Positions 7,982 to 29,391 of a stretch of 64,000 bases of DNA are shown piece by piece. The position numbers and the translations under genes were made by a program. The notes below the pieces were generated by a model. That model was given only the letters and a program-made list of their open reading frames with translations. It was not told where the DNA came from and ran no database searches. The DNA comes from Cinnamomum chago (taxonomy: Eukaryota; Streptophyta; Magnoliopsida; Laurales; Lauraceae), in NCBI GenBank assembly GCA_038049695.1, contig CP142455.1, forward strand, positions 33,207,501 through 33,271,500, given 5' to 3'. Within the stretch, counting starts at the first letter, position 1. Every line of letters begins with the position of its first letter.

Positions 7982-9719
7982 TGAAAGTCCTTGGGATCCT
8001 AACCCTAGAGGGGGGGGTGACTAGGGTGAGCTACAATTATGACCAATTTAAACAAATTTTAATTCTTAACATAAACTAGTCACATGTGATGATATTAACC
8101 AAACAAGATGCGGAAGCTAATAAAAGAATCACCACAAGCATACACCACAACACCAAGGTTTATAGTGGTTCGGCCTCAATGCCTACGTCCACTACCGGCT
8201 TGTGATCCAATCACCCCACCGGATTTCCACTATTTATGCTTTTTACTGGGCTAAGCAATAACCCTTACAATGTTGTTTTTTTAGGCTAAACAACAACCTC
8301 TCAATGTGCTTTTCTAGGCTAAGCAATAACCTTTACAAAATGCTTTTCTTAGGCTAAGCAATAACCTTTACAAAATGCTTTTCTTAGGCTAAGCAATAAC
8401 CTTACAAGAGATGATTTCTCTAAAAAAGTGTCTTTACAAAAGATCACTCTAAGAGATACAATTTTAAGCTCAATGAAGTTGCCTCTTAAATAGGCTAATA
8501 TGAAAGTTTAATTCAAATTACAAACATACACTAAAACAAGTTAAAGTGTGTGCACAAGTGTATGAATGCTTTTCTTCAATCAATTTCTACAATGAAGCTC
8601 TTAAATGAATGCATGATGCATTTTAAAATCAAAGCTTATAAAATGATGATTGAAGATAAAACTAATCACATAAAAGATTCAAACAACTTTGAAGAATTGA
8701 AACAAACAAGTTGTATGAATGTTAAAGTCTAAGAACACATGTGATTAGGAAAAGAGAGTTTGCAAACCAAACTAATTTACCAAAGAAGATATGAGTTTGC
8801 TAAACATCTCTTTACAAACTAGAAATCATGCATAAAAGAAAATACAAAGATTTAAACATGCATAGACTCTAATTTTAATGGAAATCAAAATACAAGTAAA
8901 GTGTACCTTTTTTAAAACTCAAGTATTTGATTTCCAAATAGCCCTCTAGCCTTTCCAACTTCTTCCCCTTTCTTTGGCTCCAATATGGTCTCAAAAGTTC
9001 ATGTATCAAGCCTTGAAAAAGGTTGGAAATGAATGGACTTTATAGCCAAAAAGTGCCCAACGGCTAGTCCTCGGTCGACCTGCAAAGAGGCCTCGGTCTA
9101 CCGGGAAAGTACAACGGTCATAATTCTGACCGTTGGGCTCAGGGGGCCCTTTTTGGCCTGCAGTGTTCCCGGTCGACCGGGACCTCTGCGCCGGTCGACC
9201 GGCGACACTGCCAGGCCACTCCTCTTTTGCAAAAATTCCAACTTTTGCACATATGAAGGTATTTCTTTGGGAGGATTTTTGGGCCACTAAATCAAGCTTG
9301 GTAACATGTTTTAGATCAATCTAAGATGTTTAAAAACATGAAACACAAAGAGCCTAAAATGATTTGAAACTTTAAAACCAAAGGCTAGCTTGATTTCTAA
9401 AAACTCTTTTCAAATGAAAATGCATACAAAGATGATTCTGAAAGTGATGAATGTATGCAAAACACAAACCTAAATTCTCAATATGATTTCTCAAAAGTAA
9501 TGCACAAAGAATTAGGTTTTCAAAAGAGTTTGGATTCTAAAACCAATGCATCCAAGTTTAAAACCAAAACATGCATAAAACAAAACTTTTACAAAACTTA
9601 AAAGCAATGCATGTATAAAACCAGATTTCAAGATATTCTAAAACAATGCATGAGTGTAAATTCAAATTATATGAATATGTTAATGCATCCATCAAATTGC
9701 AAATACAAAATCTCTAACA
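7982..9719 (-). mobile_element. Solo LTR, family 1 copy B
   Basis: Perfect 5-bp TSD tttag at 7,977-7,981 and 9,720-9,724. Plus-strand ends are TGAAAGTCC and CTCTAACA, i.e. TGTTAG...TTCA on the minus strand. A minus-strand TATA box (CTATAAAG) is at 9,038-9,045. Four GGTCGACC-type sites lie at 9,070-9,205, around an AACGGTCA...TGACCGTT hairpin. At 1,738 bp it is the shortest complete copy. It also carries several gcttttcttaggctaagcaataacc repeats at 8,230-8,405. Confidence 0.88.
8230..8405. repeat. Short tandem repeat inside LTR copy B
   Basis: A unit of about 37 bp, whose core is aggctaagcaataacc, is repeated about five times. Fewer copies occur in the same place in LTR copies A (about 5,465-5,540) and C (about 14,440-14,570), so repeat number varies between copies. 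In LTR orientation the array lies downstream of the TATA box. Confidence 0.7.
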
Positions 9720-9724
9720 TTTAG

Positions 9725-11000
9725 ATCATCGGGTCTTTCAAAGTGACCTCTTTTGAAAAAGATCTAGTCCATTTAAAATTAATGGCTTGTATTTTATTAG
9801 CTTTCAACAAAATTCAATCAAATAGGATGTGGGCCCACCATCATATTGAGCACCACGAAAAACTTACAATTTCCACAATATCATGGTGGGCCTTACTATT
9901 TTGTCCAATGTTTTTTTCTAAGCCGTCTAATGGGATTTAGAGATTACTACTAGTGATAGGTCCTTACTTTGAAACTCTTCCATCATGGCCTCTTCCCAAA
10001 ACAACTTTATCCAAATTTTTTAGCAAAAATAAAAGGAAGAGATAATGTGCAATTAAAATGAAATTGAGATCTTAGAATTGAATCAACGTGCAAATTTCTT
10101 TGATTATTAAAAGGCACGATGTGTCAAACTTTCTTTGGATATTAAAAGAGTGGGAAAAAATGCCCCTGTTTAAATGGGGAGGTTTTGAGATTCTCTTAGA
10201 ATATAATATAATATTAATTTTCACATCCCACTAAAACCATTTTTTCACATTCTAAAAAAGAAGCATTAAAATAACTAGTCTTTTCTCTTCACAATTTCAA
10301 ATCCCAACAAATCATACTGAATATAAATAGAAACTATTGACTTCTCATTATATATTTAATCCCCAATCTATTCAATACTATCAATATTAATATTTTAATT
10401 ATGGTGTTCCACATCTTTAATCAAGAAAATTAAAAAAAACATTAATATTTTAACTATTTTTCTCCAATAAAGCCTAAAGCGAGAAAAAATTGTAATAATA
10501 TTAAAAGATAAAAAAGGCCTCATTTAGAATTATCGCTTTAGGCCTCAAATTGTCTTGAGCCGGCCCTTGCAGTTGGGCTGGGAAAGAGCTGAGGGCAAAT
10601 GAAAAGGCCGGCTGCTGTGTGTAGGCTGGCCGTTGAGCATGTGGGTTTGCAGGGTTCCTGGGACACGAGGAAGTTGATAATCTCAGCTAGGGGCACATGG
10701 CGATCACAGCTGGGACAAGTGGAGGTTGGGCTCACAGTTTGTCTGATGAAGGGTGACTAGTCGTTAGGCAGTCTTGTATGGATGGTCATATACATATGGC
10801 TGGGTCCCACAGGGACAACTCAGATGGCCCACTAAGATAAGGGAAAGCTGGGTACAATTTAACAAATGACGAAAATCGGATTAGCAGCTGATTAATAAGA
10901 ATCCATTCAACACAAATGGTAAAATTTCATAATCTTTAACATAAACACAGTTGAAACATTTTGACTAAAATCCACCATTTATTATTACTCTTAGGCAAGA
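9725..11000. other. Unassigned AT-rich spacer
   Basis: No supported gene. At 10,515-10,569 the sequence ends in ttgagccggcccttg, resembling the end of a hAT-type element, but I found no matching opposite end or TSD. 10,600-10,740 holds a patch of the ggccggctgc minisatellite. Confidence 0.4.
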
Positions 11001-11009
11001 TCTTTAGAA

Positions 11010-11053
11010 GAGAAATTCCATATGCACCCACCTATTCTCCTGAATACGCCCAC
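11010..11053 (+). repeat. MULE left terminal inverted repeat
   Basis: Matches the inverted right end (20,127-20,170) across most of its length, with shared blocks GAAATTC, GCACCCAC and CTGAATAC/ATGAATAC. Similarity fades after about 44 bp, so these are short TIRs for a MULE. Confidence 0.85.
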
Positions 11054-11302
11054 TTGCTGACCTCACCACACCCATTCTAATTTTGGCTTGATTTTGCTGA
11101 ACACACCCACCATAATCCCCAGACTGCCCATCCAAGCTCACCGTTCGTTCCCTGTTCCATTTCCTGAACACATTCCCTCGTTTGCATTTTTCAAATTTGT
11201 GGCCATTCGGAGTCGTCCCACTTCACAGCTCTCACACCCTCGTGGACAGTTGGTGAGCTGTTCTTCGTCTTCTTCGTCTTCTTCATCAGGACAGTGAAAC
11301 AG

Positions 11303-11749
11303 GTGAGAGCCCTTCTTCTTCTTCATAGGTTTATCATTTTCACAAATTTGTTTAGGTTGTAATTTATGCATTAGAGAGTATAGTTGTGAGACCTTTGCAA
11401 CAAATAGGGAAGAATCTGGTGTGAAAAGAAATAGTTTCGAACTCCAGTTTTCCATTTTTGAAAACATCTGTTCGCGATCTGCTCGGCAGTCCAAAGACGT
11501 GCAGGGATTTTCTGCATGGCAATTGTAAACCGTGCAGAATATATATGCACGGCCTATATAAGCTGTGCACATATAATTTGCACGGTTTCATATTACCGTG
11601 CAAACAGAGGTTGCACGATTACATTGAGCTGTGCAAACAGAACTGGCACGGTTCCATTTAGCCGTGCAGAATAATGTTGCACTGTCTATTTAAACCGAGC
11701 AGTACAAAAAAATATGATATCCTCTTTTATTGGTTTTCTTTCTTAACAG
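11303..11749 (+). other. Predicted 5' leader intron of the PMD gene
   Basis: Donor ag|gtgaga at 11,303 and acceptor ttcttaacag at 11,749, 11 bases before the ATG at 11,760. The exon before it is CTT-rich (tcttcgtcttcttcg), a common plant leader composition. Splice sites are inferred from consensus only. Confidence 0.65.
11479..11702. repeat. 33-bp palindrome array 1 (7 units), in the PMD-gene leader intron
   Basis: Seven 26-nt imperfect palindromes start at 11,479, 11,512, 11,545, 11,578, 11,611, 11,644 and 11,677, each followed by a 7-nt spacer, so the period is exactly 33 bp. Consensus arms are TTGCACGG and CCGTGCAA with a variable AT-rich centre. The first unit begins CTGCTCGG and the last ends CCGAGCAG, so the array's outer ends are also inverted copies. 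It lies inside the intron 11,303-11,749. Confidence 0.9.
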
Positions 11750-11759
11750 ATTGGAAGAA

Positions 11760-14080
11760 ATGCCGAGAAGACCAGCTCGCCGTATTGGTGGAAGCTCACA
11801 GATGACAGGGGGACGGGCTAGTTCTTCTAGCGAGCCATCGAGAGTTCGGACGAAGATCGGTGTCTCAAGATCGCGTTCCCGAGGTTTGCATGCTAGTTCT
11901 TCGACCGCCGGCCGTCAACGGCCAATGGCGTCTGAACGAAGACAAAAACTGCAACAGGATCCACTCCCGGAGCAGGTTGAGGAGCATGTTGACAGTTCTT
12001 CAGAGGATGATTCCTCAGAGTAGGAGGCACAGTCGTCCAGTCCCCGTGCATCGGTACCAGGAGAAGAGCATGGTGACAGTTCTTCAGAGGATGATTCCTC
12101 TGAGGAGGAGGCACAGCTGTCCAGTCTCCCTGCAGTAGCACCAGGGGAGGATGATTCCCATTTCGAGGAGGGACAACCATCCAGTCCTCCTGCTGCGGCG
12201 GCAAGGGAGGGTCCTATCCCCGGCGGTCCGGCCGACCTATCTGTCCTTATGAGTTTTAGGACACACGTAGCCTTGTTCATATGGGACGGGGAGGTACAAT
12301 TGCCTTTTTTAATGTTTTAATTAATAGTTTTTCAAATAAGTTGTGTTGAAGTCTATAATAACAGATATTAATGAAGATTTATACTTGTAATGTGCAGGAA
12401 CGTGAGGCACTCAAGTGTATCAATCATTGGCGAGGGCTGAAGGATTGGTACATACCTTTGCCCGGGGATGGGGCCGATATCCATGTTCCTCGGTTTTATG
12501 CTATTATAGAAGAGTCTGGATTGGCAGATTTGAAGCGTTTTTCTTACCGATATATCTCCAGCCCTCTGGTATCCAGCTTTGTAGAGAGGTGGCAGCCCGA
12601 GACAAATACATTCCACATGCCATTTGGTGAGATGACGATCACCTTAGATGATGTGGGTACTCTCCTCGGCATCCCAGTAACGGGACTGCCTGTCCACGCA
12701 TCGACTAGTATGGGATTTACTGATCAAGTAGATTTACTTGAGCGTGGACTGGGCGTGGATAGGGCATCTGCGTCAGCTGAGTTGGGGTAGTGAGGATGGC
12801 CTGGATCAAACGGGTGTGCGACGAGGTGAGTCATGCGTCGTCTGTTGAGCAGGTAGAGTGTGCAGCTAGAGGCTATCTTCTGTATTTGTTAGGCTGCACA
12901 CTCTTCTCCGATAAGTCAGCCACTCGAGTCCCCATTGCCTACCTACATTTACTGATGGACTTGCCACGGGTCCGTCGTTATGCATGGGGGGCTGCCGCAC
13001 TTGCATATCTTTATCGCCAATTGGGGACCGCCACGACGGCAGATGTGCGACAGATTGCTGGATATCTGACACTGCTCACGGTAATACATATACATATACA
13101 TGTTCCATCGTAATTGATCCTTTAAATTGTATAATTAATAATTGGTATCTTTTGCAGTCTTGGGTGTACGAGCACTTCCCATTTACCCGTCCTCCTGCGC
13201 AGTAGGGATATACCGCTAGTATGCCTCAAGCGAGCCGCTGGAATGCTGGACAAGATTCTGGGATTGCGAGGGAGAACATAAAACTGTTGCGTGAGAGGCT
13301 GGATGACCTACATCCGAGTCAGGTGAGCACCCAAATGGGGTCCTTGGTATAATGTTGCACTTTTTTTCAATGAACAAATTTTTATTATAATAATGAGTTC
13401 TTTCATTTACTTGCCACAGGTCCAGTGGGATCCATATACTGGTGTCAGGGCTCATCATCCATTCCATCAAATATCTTTCTTCTGTGGTTGCTTGAGAGCG
13501 CTAGATGTCATTGAACCCTACCATCCACATAGGGTTCTCCGACAGTTTGGATATGTACAGACCATCCCACCCGCACCGCTCGCCCCCATTCGTGCGTCTC
13601 GGGGATCTACTGCTGGACAATACAGGGTCTCTTACAGATTTCTAGACCAGTACTGGGTTACTTCGGAGGATCGTGTATTGTCCTTAGCGCACCGCGGCCA
13701 TCGAGCGCAACATGCATGGGAGTGATCACCCGACTACCTCGAGTGGTTTTCTAGGATTTCACACCCTCGAATACAGAACCCCCAACGTCATTCCCACTAT
13801 CACCCTAATGAGGGTGTAGCTGACCCGACTCCAAGAGTGGTGAGTGTTTGTACTTTATCGAAACATTATGCATCCATTTGTTATACTTATCTTAGGTATT
13901 GACACAGTTAATTGTTTCATTTGTTATACTTTCTTACAGATCACTCGGGCGAGGGACCATCTCCGCGCTACGATTGCACGAACGGAACAGCCTGCAGATT
14001 TCTATTACCGGGCACTCCAAACCACCCTCGAGATCCTGGATGGCTTGCCGGTGACGTACCGACGACGTACAGATCCATGA
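11760..14080 (+). pseudogene. Plant mobile domain (PMD, MAIN-like) gene of the MULE, decayed
   Basis: Predicted coding exons: 11,760-12,293, 12,398-13,080, 13,158-13,322, 13,420-13,839 and 13,940-14,080, all with GT-AG boundaries. The N-terminus is basic and Ser/Arg-rich (MPRRPARR), then come acidic Ser/Glu/Asp repeats of 28 residues (DNA period 84). The plant mobile domain follows, recognised from FRTHVALFIWDGE, FHMPFGEMTITLDDVGTLLGIP and, near the C-terminus, RVLRQFGYVQTIPP. PMD proteins (MAIN, MAIL1) act in plant gene and transposon silencing, and PMD genes are known to be carried by MULEs and other transposons; what this one did is unknown. Breaks: TAG at 12,021, a frameshift in GGGG near 12,785, TAG near 13,203 and TGA near 13,726. 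It therefore cannot make a full protein. It converges on the transposase gene. Confidence 0.85.
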
Positions 14081-15067
14081 TGGCATGAGGGTATTTTTTT
14101 TTTTTGTCTTATTCTTTTGTTAAGTCTGTATGGATGGGAAATTAAAGCATACACTTTAGAGGATGTATGGATGGGTTTATCTGTAAGTCCATGGGGATCC
14201 GAACCCTAGAGGGGGGGTGAATAGGGTGAGCTCCAATTATGACCAATTTTAATTAAATCTAACTTCTTTAAAACAAACTAGTCACATGTGATGATTAATC
14301 ATACAAGATGCGGAAGCTAACAAAAGAATCACCACAAAGCAATCACCATCACACAAGTATTTATAGTGGTTCGGCCTCAATGCCTACATCCACTACCGGC
14401 TTGTGAACCAACACCCCACCGGATTTCCACTATTTATGCTTTTCAATAGGCTAAGCAATAACCTTTACAATATGCTTTCCAAGGCTAAGCAATAACCTTA
14501 CATTGATGTTTTTCAAGGCTTAACATCAACCTATACATTATGCTTTTATAGGCTAAGCAATAACCTCTTCAACCATAGGTTGGTTATCTCACTAAATTAG
14601 TGTCTAACATACACTTGATGGAGATTCTATTTAGCTCATTACAATGCCTCTTAATTAGGCGGATATGGAAGTGAAAATCTAATATACACTCACACTATGA
14701 ATGCAAAGATGAAAGTACATGAAGTGTGTGTGTGTGGTCCTCAATCATTTTGAAAATGAAAGCTCATAAATGTAAGCCTAAGGCTTTTGAAAGTTTTAGC
14801 TCAAAAACATTTATGATTGAGGAAATGTTAATCACATGTTAAAAGTAACAACTTGTTAATGAGATCAAAGATTTACAAGTTGTATGAAATGAATTAGCTC
14901 TAAACATGTGATGCATAGGGATGTCAATCAAATCAACATGAAGCTCAAAACATAAAAATAGATTTGATTGAAAAGAGGGGACAAATCATATGTAATTATA
15001 AATACAACTTGAATAAGATATACCTATCAAAGTAAGGCAAGTTGTGAAACTTTAAAACAATAATATA

Positions 15068-15650
15068 CATATGATTTGTAAAGATGTTGAATCCAAAACA
15101 TAAGATACATTTGAAAGAGATTTTCTTATGATGGAAAAACAACAACCAAAGATTCAACAAAGTATATGAATCATGTTACATATTTCATTAACATGATCTA
15201 CTTAGATTTACCAAAGATAAAGTACTACTTTGATTGAATCAATGGTGATGCATCCAAAACAATAGATCAATTCAAAATATAGAACATGCTAAGGATACAA
15301 CACATCATAGTTTATCATGTTACTAAAGATTTACCTAAGATAAAACAAAACATGAAAACATATGATTTGTAAAGAAGTTGAGTCCAAAACATAAGATAGT
15401 TTTGAAAGTGATTTTCTTATGATGGAAAACAACAACCAAAGATTCAACCAAGTATAGGAATCATGTTACATATAATTTCAAATGTTCTTTCATTAACATG
15501 ATCTACTTAGATTTACCAAGATTAAGTACTACTTAGATTGAATCATATGGTGTTGTATCCAAAACAATAAATCAACTCAAAACATAAAACATGTTAAGGA
15601 CACAACACAAACATAGTTTAACATGCTAGAAATGATTTACCAAAAATAAA
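15068..15650. repeat. 291-bp tandem duplication in LTR copy C
   Basis: Two adjacent copies, starting at 15,068 and 15,359, share long near-identical blocks such as acaacaaccaaagattcaac. Copy A carries a single version, so the duplication arose after copies A and C separated. Confidence 0.8.
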
Positions 15651-15867
15651 ACAAAGCATGAAAACATATGATTAAGGACAGTAAAGCCTACTTGGAGATT
15701 TAACTTCATTAATCCAAGCTTTAGCTTTCCTAATGCTCCCCTTCATCCCTTGGTTCTTTTCCCTTGAATATGCCTCAAAACCTCTCAAGGAGGGGCTAAA
15801 AATTCCCAACTTTTGGCAAAGGAAAGAACTCATATTTATAGCAAAAAGTGCCCAACGGCTAGTCCTC

Positions 15868-15995
15868 GGTCGACCTGCACACAGGCCTCGGTCGACCAGG
15901 AAGGCACAACGGTCAAATTTCTGACCGTTGGAGCACTTTTGGCCCTGACGGCCTGCAGTGATCCTGGTCGACCGGGACCTCTGCGCCGGTCGACC
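15868..15995 (-). promoter_or_regulatory. Paired GGTCGACC palindromes upstream of the LTR TATA box
   Basis: Perfect GGTCGACC octamers at 15,868, 15,890, 15,966 and 15,988 form two pairs, each 22 bp start to start, about two helical turns. Between the pairs is an inverted repeat, AACGGTCA...TGACCGTT. The TATA box is 28 bp downstream on the minus strand (15,833-15,840). Copy B has the same layout at 9,070-9,205 and copy A a more eroded one. Read as U3 promoter elements by position. Confidence 0.6.
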
Positions 15996-16557
15996 GGCGA
16001 CACTGCAGGGATCCCAAATTCCACTTTTGCAATTTCAAACTTATTCTTTGTGGAACTTAATGGGCCATACAATCAAGCTTAAAAACATGTTTTAAACCAT
16101 TCTAAGGGTTTTAAAACATGAACCATAAAAAGCCTAAAACATTTTGAAAGATTTAAAACTCATAGGCTAGCTTGATTTTCTAAAAACTCTTTTCAAATCA
16201 AATGCATCCAAGATTTAAAAACAAATCATGCATAAATCAAAACTTTTACAACTCTTAAAAGAAATGCATGAATAAAACAAGATTTCAAGTTTATTTGAAA
16301 CAATGCAAGTGTGTGAATCAAATGATGCTTGAATGATTATGCATCCATCAAATTGCAATCAACAAAATGCCTAACATTATCCATTTTGGGGGTTTAAGGA
16401 ATTTTTTGGATATGTATGGATGGATCACCTGATTTTTTGGATGTATCCATTTTTTTAATGGATGTTTTGAGGATACACTTTTTTATGTTTGAACTTGTAT
16501 GGGCCTTATATGGATATGTATGTTATGTGTTTCTGTCCGAATATTTGCTAAAATACA

Positions 16558-16715
16558 CTGCACGACCACCATGTTCCGAGCATATAGAGTGTGCACGGCA
16601 CTTTATTAATGTGCAAATAGTTTATGCACGGCAAATTTATGCCGTACATTATCCATTTCAGCGGAACATATTCGCCGTGCAGAACAAATTTGCCCAGCCA
16701 TGTTTAACCGAGCAG
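16558..16715. repeat. 33-bp palindrome array 2 (5 units), between the MULE genes
   Basis: Units of 26 nt start at 16,558, 16,591, 16,624, 16,657 and 16,690 with 7-nt spacers. They are more diverged than in arrays 1 and 3 but keep GCACGG/CCGTGC arms. The last unit ends taaccgagcag, nearly the same as the last unit of array 1 (taaaccgagcag). It lies about 145 bp downstream of the transposase stop codon. Confidence 0.85.
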
Positions 16716-17029
16716 TTGTTAATGAAGTAATACCTTCTTTGGAATATTATTAATGAATTAATACACAACATAAACACATAAAGACCTGATCGAATTCATT
16801 GGCCATCCAATACAAAATAGGTAATATGTTTGTTTACATCAAATGAAGAGTACACATAATCAATCGCTGTCAAGATTGACCGACTCCTGCGTTGCGACAC
16901 TGTTTCCAATCAATTCTCTGAATTGCTCGATGCTCTTTGCATATGGGATCTGCCATCCGTCTGCTTTAGGATGGTGGTGTCTATGCCAATTTGTAGCAAT
17001 GGGAGGGATGGGTGATTCGGGTTTCATGA

Positions 17030-17430
17030 AGACCTGAACAAAATGGTTTCCATTGACGAAACCAACCGCGAGCACTTTGTGAGAACTTGATGGAATCGGG
17101 GATGATCTCAAAGGCAGGAAAGTAAGGCACTGCTGCAGTGAAAGAAGGACCAATACAACGTTATAATATGAAGATATTAAGTGACCCATGTCCGGCATTG
17201 TCATCCATCGATCAAATGAAGGATTGCTTTCAAAGTAACACAATGCGTAATACAGCTCCCCAACCCTGTCCTCTCCTCCATAGACCAGTGCATAATAATT
17301 TTGATACCTCTGCAATTCATTGCTCAAATCCATTCTAACCTGCATCCATTTATCCTCGCCCGGTCCTAGGAGACCAGCTATCGCTCTGAATCCACAGTTA
17401 CCATCAGCTGCAACATCCTTAATAGTGTGG
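17030..17430 (-). other. OTU-like cysteine protease domain of the transposase
   Basis: Asp and Cys lie in AADGNCGFRAIAG (near 17,380-17,420) and the predicted catalytic His in GNHFVQV (near 17,035-17,060), about 120 residues apart, as expected for OTU proteases. All the signature residues are kept although the PMD gene of the same element is badly decayed. Confidence 0.8.
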
Positions 17431-19453
17431 ATATAGGGGCCCAAAGACTGAGGAAGCAAATGCAGAAACGTACATGACCGAGTGCGACGGACAGTTATTT
17501 TCTCCTTATTCTTCGTTGCAACTGTGTTGCTTAATCTACCTGGAACGCTATCTTTTATCGACAGTGTGTATTCAAAATTAGATGGTTCCCGACGCGTAGA
17601 TCTATCCAACTTCTTTCTTTTCGATGATGACCGACCGCGGGTATTCAATTTTACGTCTGGTTCGATAAGAGAAGTAGATGAAGGACAACCGAGTTCTCTA
17701 AGTTTTCTTAAATTTTGTATTTTACCCTTCTGATCACTACTTTGAAATCTCTTAGTGATCAACTCGAACTCTGGAGTTGTGGTCAACTCAAGGGCTTCGT
17801 TCACCATAGTGGCTTCTAAATTAAGCTTCCGCCAATAGTGGTGGACACTACTCAGTGGTATATGAGAACCTTCCCTTATGTACTCGGCAATTTCATGTGC
17901 ACATGGCAAACCATGAGTCCGTCGGATTACGCACCCACATGATGTAGAATCTGGACCAATATCACTAGCCCTTAACGACTCATTTAACACTATATCCAAA
18001 GCATTCCTTGATAGAAATCCTCTCAATTCACGAAACAGTGCCGGTTTGAACTTATGTTGCACGGTGTTCAAACTCTTTTCAAAAGAAGCCTTTATTTCTG
18101 TAAAAAGCAACTCTAGCAAGGCATGTATAACCTGCCAGGACGAATCAAAGCTACAGCTCGATGTGCCTAGGTGTCTCTTTAATTTTGCATGTGCACTCTC
18201 AGCTCTGTTAGTAGTGACGTTCCCAAAGTGCATATGCCGATCCGTCCATGCAGCCACAAATTGCTCCTTATGCTTATTCAACCATGAGGTCTTCACATAA
18301 TCAACAGCATGTGGATACCCGCAGTAATTCCATTCCAAAGCACTTAGCATTTGCGTGTAGTCGCTTTCAGTTGGAGAGACTACCAACGTGTTCCAACAAG
18401 AGATAAATGCAACCCATCTTTCGTTGGTCTCAAAACACTTCTTACAATTTGCCAAGATGTTCCTAGAAATATGCCACCTGCATAATAGTTTGCTGCATTC
18501 GGAAAAATAACATTTATTGCATTCATCAGCGCTAACTCTTTGTCTGTGACAATCACACGGGTCGTGATGCATCCATCCATTAATTCCTTAAGCCTCTCCA
18601 AAGCCCATCTATAATTGGCCTCCCTCTCTGATTCAAGGTACACAAAAGCAACGGAGAACGTCAATTGAGTAGATGTGACACCAACAATCTCAAGCAAGGG
18701 AAGTCGATATCTATTAGTCTTGTATGTGGAATCCATTATCAAAACTTCTGGAAATGCACGTAATAACTGAATAGATGATGGATGTGCCCAGAATAGGTTC
18801 ATGATAACATCTGTAGCATCGTTGCTAGTGTGATACTCAATGTAGTTGTTCTCCTCCAAATGCCTCATGAGTTGCTGTATTTGTGATCGACCGGCCATCT
18901 CTGTCACCCTAAACTTCTGGCGAGCATTGTAGATACTCTTAATTGTAGTGGTGTTGTGCACATCCCTTTCCTGCAATGTTCGAAGGATGTTCCTCGGTTT
19001 CACCAAACTATTAGACATATCAATCAAAACGTTGATTTCTTCCACAGAAAGCCTCCCAGCAAACGAGTGCCCCTCTAGATGCTGTGCGTTTGGATGATTG
19101 TGCACCCCACAAACCACTGTTAACATCCAATCGTCATCAGTTGCCAACTTTCGACCCTTCAAAGTAAAAGGGCAACTACACTTCTTCGTTCCCGTTGCCT
19201 TCTTAGGATTTCTCTTCTCGAATACCTTCGATGGACTCCTGTAACTACCACTTCTCTCACAAGAAAAAACGACTCTCGGCTTCCGTCCATCTCCACCAGC
19301 ATCTGAAGTCTTGATTACAATTACCAAGCCATGTTTCTTTCCAACATCCCTTGTCCATTGGATTAGGCCCTCTCGACTTCTGAATATCATGTCAGTGGTG
19401 AAGACATTTGTAAAATCCAAAAGGCACTCACTGGCACCGGTCGATTCAACCTC

Positions 19454-19746
19454 CTGCAAATCACAAATTTTTAGATTAGCACTGCACACTCATTTATTAA
19501 TTTTGCACGGTTTATATAGGCGGTGCAAAATTATTCTACACGGTTTATATAGGCGGTGCAAAATTATATTGCACGGTATATATAGGCAGTTCAGAATAAT
19601 TTTGCACGGTATATTTATGCCGTGCAGAATAATTTTGCACGGTATATATACGCCGTGTAAAATAATTTTGCACGGTATATAGAATGTCGTGCAGGACGCG
19701 AGAAAACAAAAAAAAAACGAACGAAATGAAGTCAAAATGTATATAC
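19454..19746 (-). other. Predicted first intron of the transposase gene
   Basis: Minus-strand donor GAG|GTATATAC at 19,746 and acceptor TTTGCAG at 19,454. It joins an 11-codon first exon to exon 2 in phase 0. Most of the intron (19,503-19,694) is the third 33-bp palindrome array. Confidence 0.75.
19503..19694. repeat. 33-bp palindrome array 3 (6 units), in the transposase intron
   Basis: Units start at 19,503, 19,536, 19,569, 19,602, 19,635 and 19,668, 26 nt each (the last is 27), with spacers aattatt, aattata and aataatt. This is the most regular of the three arrays: arms TTGCACGG and CCGTGCAG around TATATATA-like centres. Confidence 0.92.
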
Positions 19747-19970
19747 CTCATTTTCGTAGATCGTCAACTGCTTGTCCATATTGCAAATGCCTACTTTAAA
19801 TACACAATGTGGTGTATGGATAATTGTACTTTCAAGTTCGTTCAATAAATGGAGGAGACTTGATGATATATTAAAAAGAGTTAGAAGAAATGATGATGAA
19901 GGAGATGAAAATCAATGAGGAAGAAGGAGTGCAGAGGTGCAGTGAGAAGGGAATGGATAAAGGGATAGGA

Positions 19971-19975
19971 AGAGG

Positions 19976-20006
<31 letters not shown>

Positions 20007-20017
20007 GAAGAAGAAGA
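19971..20017. repeat. (AAG)n microsatellite in the transposase leader
   Basis: About 15 AAG/GAAG triplets on the plus strand, so CTT-rich in the sense of the transposase gene. It mirrors the CTT-rich leader at 11,260-11,335 of the PMD gene. Confidence 0.9.
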
Positions 20018-20126
20018 GACTGGAGACTGCTGCTGGTGAACCAAAGGAGGAAGACAGATGTTGATGGTAAGGGCAATTTCGTCCTTTCACCCGAGGGCAT
20101 TTTAGTAATTAAAAATTATTTAAGTT

Positions 20127-20170
20127 GTGGGTGTATTCATCACTTCCAGTGGGTGCGAATAGAATTTCCC
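20127..20170 (-). repeat. MULE right terminal inverted repeat
   Basis: Inverted partner of 11,010-11,053. The outermost base after the TSD is G in both ends (GAGAAATTC versus GGGAAATTC). Confidence 0.85.
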
Positions 20171-20196
20171 TCTTTAGAAACCTAATGTATTGCAAC

Positions 20197-25360: not shown

Positions 25361-25590
25361 TATAAATAGTCATTCTAGAAAGGGTCAGGTGACCTTACGG
25401 TCACCTGGCGGCTAGCCGCCCTTTGCAAGGGGGCTAGCCGCCAGACCCACGGTCAGCTTTCCAGTAAGCATTTTTTTTTCAGGATGATTTTCTGTGCTTC
25501 CTGCTGCTAACCGCCAGTGCACCTGCGGCTAGCCCCCAACTTTTCCTGCGGCTAGCCGTGAGCCATCCTGATTTGAATGGCAGAATTTAT

Positions 25591-26505
25591 CTCCAGTAGA
25601 AAATTCATAACTTCCTCTTCTGAACTCGAAACAACATGATTCTTGATCCAAATGAAAGATTTATCAGAGGGCTACAACTTTCATGTTTTAAGATTTAACC
25701 CAGATTTAATGGAAAGTAGTGTAAAATCACCTTGAAGCTGACTGGTCACAGAAAAATAGCAACCTGAGTGAAGCAGAGTTGTCTCCAGTAGAAAATTCAT
25801 AACTTCCTCTTCTGAACTCGAAACAACATGATTCTTGATCCAAATGAAAGATTTATCAGAGGGCTACAACTTTCATGTTTTAAGATTTAACCCAGATTTA
25901 ATGGAAAGTAGTGTAAAATCACCTTGAAGCTGACTGGTCACAGAAAAACAGCAACCTGAGTGAAGCAGAGTTGTCTCCAGTAGAAAATTCATAACTTCCT
26001 CTTCTGAACTCGAAACAACATGATTCTTGATCGAAATGAAAGATTTATCAGAGGGCTACAACTTTCATGTTTTAAGATTTAACCCAGATTTAATGGAAAG
26101 TAGTGTAAAATCACCTTGAATCTGACTGGTCACAGAAAAACAGCAACCTGAGTGAAGCAGAGTTGTCTCCAGTAGAAAATTCATAACTTCCTCTTCTGAA
26201 CTCGAAACAACATGATTCTTGATCCAAATGAAATATTTATCAGAGGGCTACAACTTTCATGTTTTGAGATTTAACCCAGATTGAATGAAAAGTAGTGTAA
26301 AATCACCTTGAAGCTGACTGGTCACAGAAAAACAGCAACCTGAGTGAAGCAGAGTTGTCTCCAGTAGAAAATTCATAACTTCCTCTTCTGAGCTCGAAAC
26401 AACATGATTCTTGATCCAAATGAAAGATTTATCAGAGGGCTACAACTTTCATGTTTTGAGATTTAACCCAGATTGAATGGAAGGTAGTGTAAAATCACCT
26501 TCAAC
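25591..26505. repeat. 192-bp tandem array, about 4.7 copies
   Basis: ctccagtagaaaattcataa starts at 25,591, 25,783, 25,975, 26,167 and 26,359, exactly 192 bp apart every time. Units are nearly identical, so expansion is recent. No open frame is conserved through the unit. Confidence 0.95.
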
Positions 26506-27124: not shown

Positions 27125-27640
27125 TATAATATCGGTTTCATAATAACCGATATAAAATATTATATATAACTGGCAGTTAGCCGCAGGTGCACTGACGGTT
27201 AGCCGCATGTGCACTTGCGGTTAGCCGCATGTGCACAGGCGGTTAGCCGCAGGACGTCCTGAAAAGGGAGGGAAGAAGGAAAAATAAAAAGGAGGGAAAA
27301 AACCGATATAAAATATGTATATATAATATCGGTTCCATAATCACCGATATAAAATATGTGTATACAACCGATATAAAATATATGTATACAACCGATATAA
27401 AATATTTGTTTATAATATCGGTTTTATAATAACCGATATAAAATATTGAAATTAATATCACATATTTTCCTAACCGATATTATATATAGAGATTATTATG
27501 CCGGTTCCAGTGTAACCGATATAAAAAAAAATTGACCGATATAAAAAAATATTAACCGATATAAAATACCTTGACTGAAGATATTATATCGGTTATATGA
27601 AAAACCGATATAGGGCAGTTTTTGCAATCGATATAAAAGC
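27125..27640. repeat. CACTA right subterminal repeats with GTTAGCCGC array
   Basis: More than ten AACCGATATAA motifs, and at 27,170-27,255 four copies of ggttagccgca or variants at about 26-bp spacing, related to the GGCGGCTAGCCGCC palindrome at 25,407. Confidence 0.8.
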
Positions 27641-27657
27641 CCTTTTTTCTAGTAGTG

Positions 27658-29391
27658 GCTATATAGGCGATTCGACACTAAGGAAGACGAAAGAGAGATA
27701 TTCAAGCTTGCCAAAGTCAGAGATAGGCGAACCAAGGACTTACACCAAGTTAAATGCATTAAGGATGAGGATGAAAAGGTATTAGTGAAGGAAGAGGAGA
27801 TAAAGGAGCGTTAGAAGAGCTACTTCTACAAGTTATTTAATGAGAGCAGTAGTAGTGACATACAATTGGGGCAGCTTACCATTTCTAGGGAAAAATCGAA
27901 TCATATGTTCTATAGGAGAATCAGTAGGGAAGAAGTTAAAGAAGTATTGAAAATGATGAAGAATGGAAAAGCGGTTGGGCTAGATGGTATCCCTATTGAG
28001 GTTTGGAGGTGCTTGGGGGAGGATGGCATAAGTTGGTTGACAAAGCCTTTTAATGTAGTGCTAAAGAGCAAGAAGATGCCTGATGCATGGAGAAAAAGTA
28101 TTCTTATACTCATATACAAGAACAAAGGAGATATTCAAAACTGTGCGAACTACCGTGGGATTAAATTGATGAGCCATACGATGAAATTATGGGAGAGAGT
28201 TATCGAGAAAAGACTAAGAAGAAGAACAAACGTTTCAGAGAATCAATTTGGTTTCATGCCTGAGAGATCAACCATGGAAGCTATCTTTCTCCTGAGAAGG
28301 TTAATGGAACAGTATAGAGAAGGTCAGAGAGATTTACATATGGTGTTCATTGACTTGGAGAATGCCTACGACCGGGTTCCTAGGGAGATTCTAAGGAGAG
28401 TACTGGAAAAGAAAAAAGTGTGTGTCGCATATATTGAGGCGATAAAGGATATGTTTGATAGAGCCGTGACATCTATAAGAATGACTGGCGGAGAGACTAA
28501 AGAGTTTCCTATCACGATTGGTCTACACCAAGGCTCAGCTTTAAGCCCGTACTTGTTTACCTTAGTTATGGATTAGATTACAAGACATATTCAGGATGAG
28601 GTGTCGTGGTGTATGCTATTTGCAAATGACATTGTTTTAGTGGATGAGACGAGAGAAGGAGTGAATGCTAAGCTAGAATTGTGGCAGAGAATGTTAGAGA
28701 CAAAAGGGTTTAGGCTAAGTCGATGCAGGACGGAATATATGGAATGCAAGTTTAGTCAAAGTAGGACACCTAGTAACATAGAAGTAAGTTTGGGCACACA
28801 AAAGATTGTAGAGAAAGAAAACTTTAGGTACCTTGGATCTATGGTGCAATAGAATGGAGAGCTTGATAATGATGTAAGTCACAGGATTCAGGCCGGGTGG
28901 ACCAAATGGAAGAGTGCTTCGAGGGTCTTGTATGATCGGAAAGTCCCCCTCAAGGTTAAAGGAAAGTATTATAAGATGGCGGTACGTCCAACGCTGTTAT
29001 ATGGATCAAAGTGTTGGGCAGTAAAGCGTAATCATGTTAAAAAGATGAAAGTTGCAAAGATGAGAATGCTAAGATGGATGTGCGGAATCACAAGGAGAGA
29101 TAGGATTAGGAATGAGGAGATTAGGGCAAAGTAGGAATAGCACCGATTGAAGATAAAATAAGAGAAAATCGATTGAGATGGTTCGGCCATGTTAGAAGGC
29201 GCCTAACGGATGCACCTGTTAAATGGTGTGAAAGCATGGCGATTGCCAGGAGTAGGAGAGGGAGAGGGAGACCAAAGAGAAGTTGGAAAGAAACTATTAA
29301 ACATGACCTTACCTACATGGATCTAACGGAAGGCATGGCCCTAAACAGATTTGATTGGCGTCGTCAAATCCATATAGCCGACCCCACCTAG
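27658..29391 (+). pseudogene. RTE LINE reverse transcriptase
   Basis: Frames at 27,866-28,576, 28,601-28,852, 28,928-29,134 and 29,173-29,391 give a nearly continuous RTE reverse transcriptase: NGKAVGLDGIPIEVW, MVFIDLENAYDRVPREIL, GLHQGSALSPYLFTL, then MLFANDIVLVDETREG. The usual catalytic FADD is FAND here (AAT for GAT near 28,624), which should abolish activity. Downstream come YGSKCWAVK and MRWFGHVRRR, typical of the RTE C-terminus. Stops separate the frames. It starts at the far side of the CACTA insertion. Confidence 0.9.

Follow-up and report, generated by a model that had tools for sequence, protein, structure and literature searches.

Palindromic 33-bp-period arrays in a PMD-encoding Mutator-like element of Cinnamomum chago as candidate binding sites for the element's own PMD protein

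What reads the three palindrome arrays carried by a single Mutator-like element (MULE) in the genome of Cinnamomum chago? The element lies in a 64,000-nt stretch of contig CP142455.1 (assembly GCA_038049695.1, positions 33,207,501 to 33,271,500), referred to below as the window, and it encodes a transposase together with a PMD protein. Sequence-specific anti-silencing by transposons is already known from the Arabidopsis VANDAL elements. Analysis of the arrays, of their relatives across the genome and of the predicted fold of PMD suggests that the arrays are probably clustered binding sites for the element's own PMD protein, whose predicted fold matches that of VANC21, the VANDAL protein that binds DNA sequence-specifically and counteracts silencing in Arabidopsis, and which would counteract the silencing of its own family.

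Geometry and placement of the three arrays

The arrays contain 7, 5 and 6 units, as a first-pass annotation of the window had reported, and their positions were reproduced by register pairing, half-site distances and comparison with shuffled sequence.

11479..11702, no strand assigned: array 1, 7 dyads TTGCACGG-N10-CCGTGCAA with a 33-bp period, in the intron of the PMD 5' untranslated region (5'-UTR)
16558..16715, no strand assigned: array 2, 5 dyads, 145 bp past the transposase stop, between the convergent 3' ends
19503..19694, no strand assigned: array 3, 6 dyads, amplified recently, in transposase intron 1

An 8-bp arm, a 10-bp centre, a second 8-bp arm and a 7-bp spacer add up to 33 bp in all three arrays, and arm pairing is maximal in this register (59/91, 34/65 and 49/78 half-pairs in arrays 1, 2 and 3, respectively). 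When a half-site matrix was used, the forward-to-reverse start distance was 18 (n = 15) or 19 (n = 1) and the reverse-to-forward distance was 15 (n = 13); no other distance was found inside the arrays among those tested, 10–27 and 8–29. The strict period claimed at first pass holds throughout the arrays apart from one extra base in the final unit of array 3 (27 nt). The longest 33-bp run comprised 7 dyads; in 200 dinucleotide-shuffled versions of the element, such runs never exceeded 1. Of the 18 array units, 17 had dyad scores of 16.0–29.3, and the best score elsewhere in the window was 13.6; the eighteenth, the shifted final unit of array 3, scored -6.8 in the fixed register.

The statement that the arms are kept while the centres vary was found to apply to arrays 1 and 2 and not to array 3. 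Across the units of arrays 1 and 2, the arms are 64–76% alike and the centres and spacers 30–37% (centres, 37%), close to the 0.31–0.32 expected from base composition. The likeness in array 3 is 0.77 for the centres and 0.72 for the arms. Because its centres are as alike as its arms, array 3 is a recent tandem amplification, arrays 1 and 2 being old. A period of 33 bp corresponds to 3.14 turns at 10.5 bp per turn and thus to a drift of about 50 degrees per unit, so the sites do not strictly share one face of the DNA, contrary to what had been supposed.

Splice signals and reading frame place two of the arrays in the first introns of the convergent genes and the remaining one between the genes, in agreement with the first-pass annotation. 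The element is organised as follows.

11010..20170, no strand assigned: complete Mutator-like element with ends GAGAAATTCCATATGCACCCAC / GGGAAATTCTATTCGCACCCAC, recognised by inverted ends and flanking duplications
11001..11009, no strand assigned: left copy of the 9-bp target-site duplication TCTTTAGAA, from sequence reading
20171..20179, no strand assigned: right copy of the same duplication, from sequence reading
11303..11749, + strand: PMD 5'-UTR intron containing array 1, from GT...AG splice signals and the gene model
11760..14080, + strand: PMD gene, coding exons 11760-12293, 12398-13080, 13158-13322, 13420-13839 and 13940-14080
14200..16390 (approximate ends), no strand assigned: younger nested insertion, roughly 2.2 kb long, that separates PMD from array 2, from direct repeats
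16860..19453, - strand: transposase exon 2, with an AFT/FAR1-type DNA-binding region, the MULE catalytic domain and a C-terminal OTU-like region
19454..19746, - strand: transposase intron 1 containing array 3, GT...AG, phase 0
19747..19779, - strand: transposase exon 1 (MDKQLTIYENE), from the gene model

The inverted ends and the 9-bp duplication identify the element as a MULE, and a relative, locus L038, has TTCATTTAA on both sides. The PMD gene (+) and the transposase gene (-) converge within the element. A read-through of the plus-strand gene matched Pfam PMD with an E value of 2.1e-70, and its first coding exon contains 84-bp tandem repeats (11982-12145, detected with the tandem repeat finder TRF) that encode acidic 28-residue repeats. 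The MULE transposase domain was found (PF10551; E value, 2.5e-20), and the DNA-binding region of the transposase matched AFT (E value, 3.9e-7) and FAR1 (5e-5, under the FAR1 cut-off). The C-terminal part of the transposase, which matched no Pfam family at E values up to 0.001, is presumably OTU-like judging from its motif; some relatives carry the database name OTU domain-containing.

The nested insertion has a relative at about 8000-9730, outside the MULE; the two are 71–96% alike in ungapped blocks, and both contain GGTCGACC palindromes. Elsewhere in the window, a 192-bp tandem repeat occupies 25590-26501 (4.8 copies, 98% alike).

Occurrence and conservation across the host genome

The genome of the plant itself (1.06 Gb, 14 contigs) was searched for the arrays. 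A strict 25-bp pattern matched 7 times and its control 0 times, and all 7 matches lay, by eye, in PMD 5' introns. The pattern TGCACGG-N10-CCGTGCA matched 637 times compared with 1 match of the reversed pattern. With an 11-nt centre, 21 matches were obtained versus 0 for the reversed pattern; 11 of these centres are identical to that of the 27-nt unit of the window, 6 are within two bases of it, and 4 are unrelated.

A PMD query gave 199 matches in the genome; 75 of 4060 first-look candidates were scored, so copy numbers given here are lower bounds. The family survey was made on the best 30 of the 199 matches, a non-random sample to which the following counts refer. Two or more dyads were present upstream of PMD in 27/30 loci, downstream in 27/30, on both sides in 24/30 and on at least one side in 30/30, and no such dyads were present in a block-shuffled control made for each of the 30 loci. 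Related MULEs without arrays, which the first-pass annotation had named as evidence against its proposal, were thus not encountered among these loci. Among centre lengths of 5–16 nt, 10 nt accounted for 223 dyads, 9 nt and 15 nt for 4 each and all others for 0, and a distance of 33 bp separated 127 of the 168 pairs of adjacent dyads.

The occurrence of the same arrays as ordinary satellite DNA outside MULEs had also been raised, and the isolated-looking dyads bear on it in part. Among the matches listed on one contig (C1), seven such dyads were examined by tblastn: PMD or transposase was found at three (L047, L049 and L050), and neither was found within 2 kb of the other four (L044, L045, L046 and L048), some of which may be non-autonomous derivatives. 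By eye, L048 resembles a transposase first intron, and L046 lies close to a ACACCCAC stretch. A protein search of other genomes with the array's own reading frame gave no match at E values up to 10, and the two-unit array pattern occurred 0 times in viral contigs.

The conservation of array 1 was determined from an alignment of 21 of 31 copies, 5 with short matching stretches and 5 without a usable match being left out. Divergence was 0.057 in the arms, 0.102 in the centres, 0.108 in the spacers and 0.127 in the flanking intron. The corresponding values for three non-redundant copies were 0.109, 0.338, 0.339 and 0.286, and gaps affected 0–2% of array comparisons versus 50% of flank comparisons; the difference of the arms was matched by 0 of 5000 column permutations, on this small number of copies. 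About one third of the arm deviations (150/419) are CpG transitions. Between families F1 (the window), F2 (L040 and L042) and F3 (L043), the arms are 77–81% alike, and the centres (24–38%) and spacers (33–40%) are near chance. The arms of L038 are 62–64% like those of F1–F3. This comparison used hand-picked units from five elements (the window, L038, L040, L042 and L043), including 5 of the 6 array 3 units.

A second half-site dialect and the element ends

L038, whose PMD is 56% identical to the query, has three arrays with a 33-bp period, placed with respect to PMD and transposase as in the window element, and its arms are mostly TTG(T/C)TCGG and CCGA(A/G)CAA; its third array is eroded (29/42 arm pairs). 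Among six loci examined from the branch to which it belongs (L038 and L051–L055), four have motif-coherent arrays: three each in L038 and L055, two in L051 and one in L053. Calls of three units (L051 at 6497 and both in L052) were not counted, because the generic array finder also called 12 arrays in 30 block-shuffled controls. The pattern TG(T/C)TCGG-N10-CCGA(A/G)CA matched 1612 times in the genome versus 5 for its control. Two loci chosen from that match list, L056 and L057 (95% alike, hence nearly copies of each other), turned out to be MULEs that encode PMD and transposase and have three arrays in the same layout, the arms reading mostly TTGTTCGG with deviations of one or two bases.

In a tree built from the PMD sequences of 16 elements plus three further proteins, the elements with the second dialect form one clade (support, 0.995), which includes one database protein each from Cinnamomum and Camellia, known as proteins alone, the Camellia protein standing beside L056/L057 at 0.913. 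The TGCACGG elements fall outside this clade, and their own grouping is weakly supported (0.457). The array geometry is the same in clades at about 54% PMD identity. One second-dialect family (C5:4110956-4111888 of the same genome, labelled G000, and its relatives) has at least 30 copies with 97–100% PMD identity over the full query, 22 of 30 being without stops in the matched stretch, which points to a recent burst of a second-dialect PMD MULE.

The ends of the elements were also compared. The left end of the window element carries TGCACCCAC, which has TGCAC in common with TTGCACGG, and CACCCA-like motifs are present in both element ends (11010-11110 and 20070-20170). Of the 15 ends located, 12 retain GCAC, and each of 8 elements of both dialects has it in at least one end; it has been lost at one end in L039, L043 and L056. 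GCAC near the element end is a candidate transposase site. In the second clade, it is present at both ends of L038 and L057 and at one of two in L056.

Candidate readers of the arrays

The first-pass annotation had guessed that the arrays bind a protein, either the transposase, PMD or a factor of the host. The guess of binding sites is supported by the evidence above, and the predicted fold of PMD, which matches the DNA-binding region of VANC21, solved with its target DNA, singles out PMD among the three. This link was obtained by fold comparison and not by sequence, searches of solved-structure sequences with PMD having yielded nothing of relevance. A short tandem motif in noncoding parts, in the window and at 30/30 best loci, and a change of motif between related families (TGCACGG versus TG(T/C)TCGG) were both found, as in VANC-type systems. 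We infer that each dyad of 8-bp half-sites would be read most likely by a protein dimer or pair, and that PMD would in this way occupy noncoding parts of its own family, namely two introns and an intergenic stretch. Bound PMD would remove or block silent chromatin there, so that transposase and PMD stay expressed. Half-sites of different dialects (mainly TTGCACGG or TTGTTCGG) in an invariant geometry would let each PMD act on its own family.

Several observations weigh against this. DUF1985 reached 15.8 bits in PMD, below the cut-off of 35.1, with 22 of 46 relatives matching at E values up to 1 (best E value, 1.1e-4); in a comparison of the PMD profile with sequences of solved structures, VANC21 (9lnj) was not among the matches at E values up to 10. 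A shared fold is no proof of shared function. The VANC21 target is a single 9-mer, and the word palindrome has 0 occurrences in the available text of its paper (PMC5735166). In the L038 branch, L054 has no array and L052 only a weak one. The dialects are not sharply separated either: in the TGCACGG families, where TGCTCGG is common, A>T at the fifth half-site base ranks third among the deviations (59/419), and lone CACGG units occur within L038, L051 and L053. Co-segregation of dialect and PMD clade does not by itself name the reader, because the transposase, too, differs from one dialect clade to the other, its DNA-binding region being 47–52% identical (L038, L051, L053 and L055). Moreover, the window copy cannot act by itself because both of its genes are broken, PMD by 3 in-frame stops and 1 frameshift and the transposase by 1 frameshift in exon 2.

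The parallel divergence of its DNA-binding region is one reason to consider the transposase instead, for which the arrays would be internal AFT/FAR1-type sites serving storage, titration or autoregulation. The AFT and FAR1 matches and the TGCAC shared by element end and array agree with this, and Aft1 prefers TGCACCC. In the second clade, however, GCAC persists at the ends but the arrays now read mostly TG(T/C)TCGG, so that a single specificity does not serve both, and the match to VANC21 belongs to PMD; we regard the transposase as an unlikely reader. PMD might also bind the arrays but act as a conventional regulator of transcription, with enhancer-like effects in introns, or recruit host machinery of the MAIN/MAIL1 type, methylation not being removed. 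Genes with the 'DOWN' promoter motif need MAIN/MAIL1 for their expression, and recognition directly or through a transcription factor is suggested in the available parts of two reports (PMC7156037, PMC9899485). The DOWN motif given there for MORC1, CATGCAGTTT, shares only TGCA with the array (PMC9899485), and three noncoding regions together with a VANC21 fold are better suited to a chromatin role; such regulation appears improbable.

A source of hairpin or small RNAs, the other proposal made at first pass, draws on strong predicted folding: all three arrays, two of them intronic, fold far beyond dinucleotide shuffles (z = -8.4, -7.3 and -10.0), and small interfering RNAs can come from tandem repeats according to the available text of PMC10398659. 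At the outermost arm position, 3 compensatory doubles occur beside 8 one-sided changes and 2 doubles without pairing, and centre and spacer pairing in array 3 is slightly above shuffled (P = 0.017 and 0.011), its units being recent, non-independent copies. At core arm positions 2–8 of the window, however, the 32 altered cells comprise 31 one-sided changes (7 of which come from the shifted unit that closes array 3), 1 non-complementary double and 0 compensatory changes, and permuting the right arms within arrays over all eight positions gave P = 0.74. The 231 unique units from 35 loci contain 28 core double deviations (17 pair-keeping) compared with 27.1 expected under independence. Centres and spacers drift freely, and a hairpin needs neither a fixed 10-nt centre nor a 33-bp period. 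The arrays thus do not appear to be a selected hairpin, and an RNA source is very unlikely, although small RNAs are conceivable as a side effect. The lack of covariation that was to tell against the arrays counts against RNA only, because independent protein-read half-sites predict it. As for a neutral minisatellite inside a MULE, the tandem structure and the recent amplification of array 3 speak for it; it is disfavoured, and we give it almost no credence, given arms about two- to three-fold better conserved than centre, spacer and flank, the nearly gap-free arrays beside flanks gapped in half of the comparisons of three non-redundant copies, and the constancy of the geometry between distant PMD clades.

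The proposal that PMD binds the arrays can be set beside three known systems. According to the available text of the VANDAL/VANC studies (Hosaka 2017, PMC5735166; Sasaki 2023, PMC10398659), the likeness lies in a MULE with an accessory protein of VANC21 fold, a short tandem motif in introns and other noncoding parts that differs between related families, and tandemly repeated peptides in a variable part of the protein, here the 28-residue repeats of the first PMD exon. The remark at first pass that no description of such arrays was known has to be qualified, in that tandem arrays of VANC motifs in VANDAL introns and upstream regions are published (PMC5735166); the palindromic 33-bp geometry was not found, 33-bp palindromic arrays being absent from the titles and abstracts of the matches listed in a literature search on MULE palindromic tandem repeats. 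The present system differs in that PMD is unrecognisable as VANC by sequence, in that the motif is no single 9-mer but a palindromic dyad of 8-bp half-sites recurring strictly every 33 bp, in its FAR1-type transposase with an OTU-like end, and in its host, a magnoliid-like plant; anti-silencing is here a proposal. In its available text, a review puts VANC21 and transposon-encoded PMDs side by side as counter-silencing strategies with the proteins unlinked, and a meeting report mentions PMD and VANC in separate talks.

In CACTA (En/Spm) transposons, TNPA binds a short site that is repeated in both orientations in the subterminal regions. The present arrays likewise contain a short site in inverted and direct orientation, for which binding by an element protein is proposed. 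CACTA repeats lie beside the ends, whereas these arrays occupy introns and an intergenic stretch in the interior of a MULE whose ends read GAGAAATTCC..., and a CACTA subterminal system was rejected. A CACTA-like end does occur elsewhere in the window (27302-27660), reading CACTACTAGAAAAAAGGGC on the reverse complement close to 27655 and accompanied by inverted subterminal repeats, ACCGATATAAAA/TTTATATCGGT. MAIN/MAIL1 share the Pfam domain of PMD and have a short DNA motif proposed as a direct or indirect target; in the available text, which shows no binding to DNA by these proteins, they differ in their host role in silencing and gene expression and in that the motif, CATGCAGTTT, lies in promoters (PMC7156037, PMC9899485).

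A wider generalisation is possible, and we offer it tentatively: all PMD proteins may be sequence-specific DNA readers of VANC fold; angiosperm PMD-MULEs may recognise themselves through dialects, with half-sites particular to each family set in one fixed geometry (8-10-8-7 bp) and co-evolving with PMD since before the magnoliid/eudicot split; and the domesticated MAIN/MAIL1 may be former anti-silencing factors that came to serve silencing and gene control through recognition of such sites. The evidence suggests a second, large branch in which PMD would take the role of VANC, and its near-identical copies suggest that this branch was recently active. Its DNA code would be cleaner than that of VANDAL, being palindromic, with fixed spacing and two dialects within one genome. 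The available text of the reports on MAIN and MAIL1 leaves their contact with chromatin open (PMC7156037, PMC9899485); the unsolved PMD domain would gain DNA binding as a candidate activity, which bears on how MAIN and MAIL1 work.

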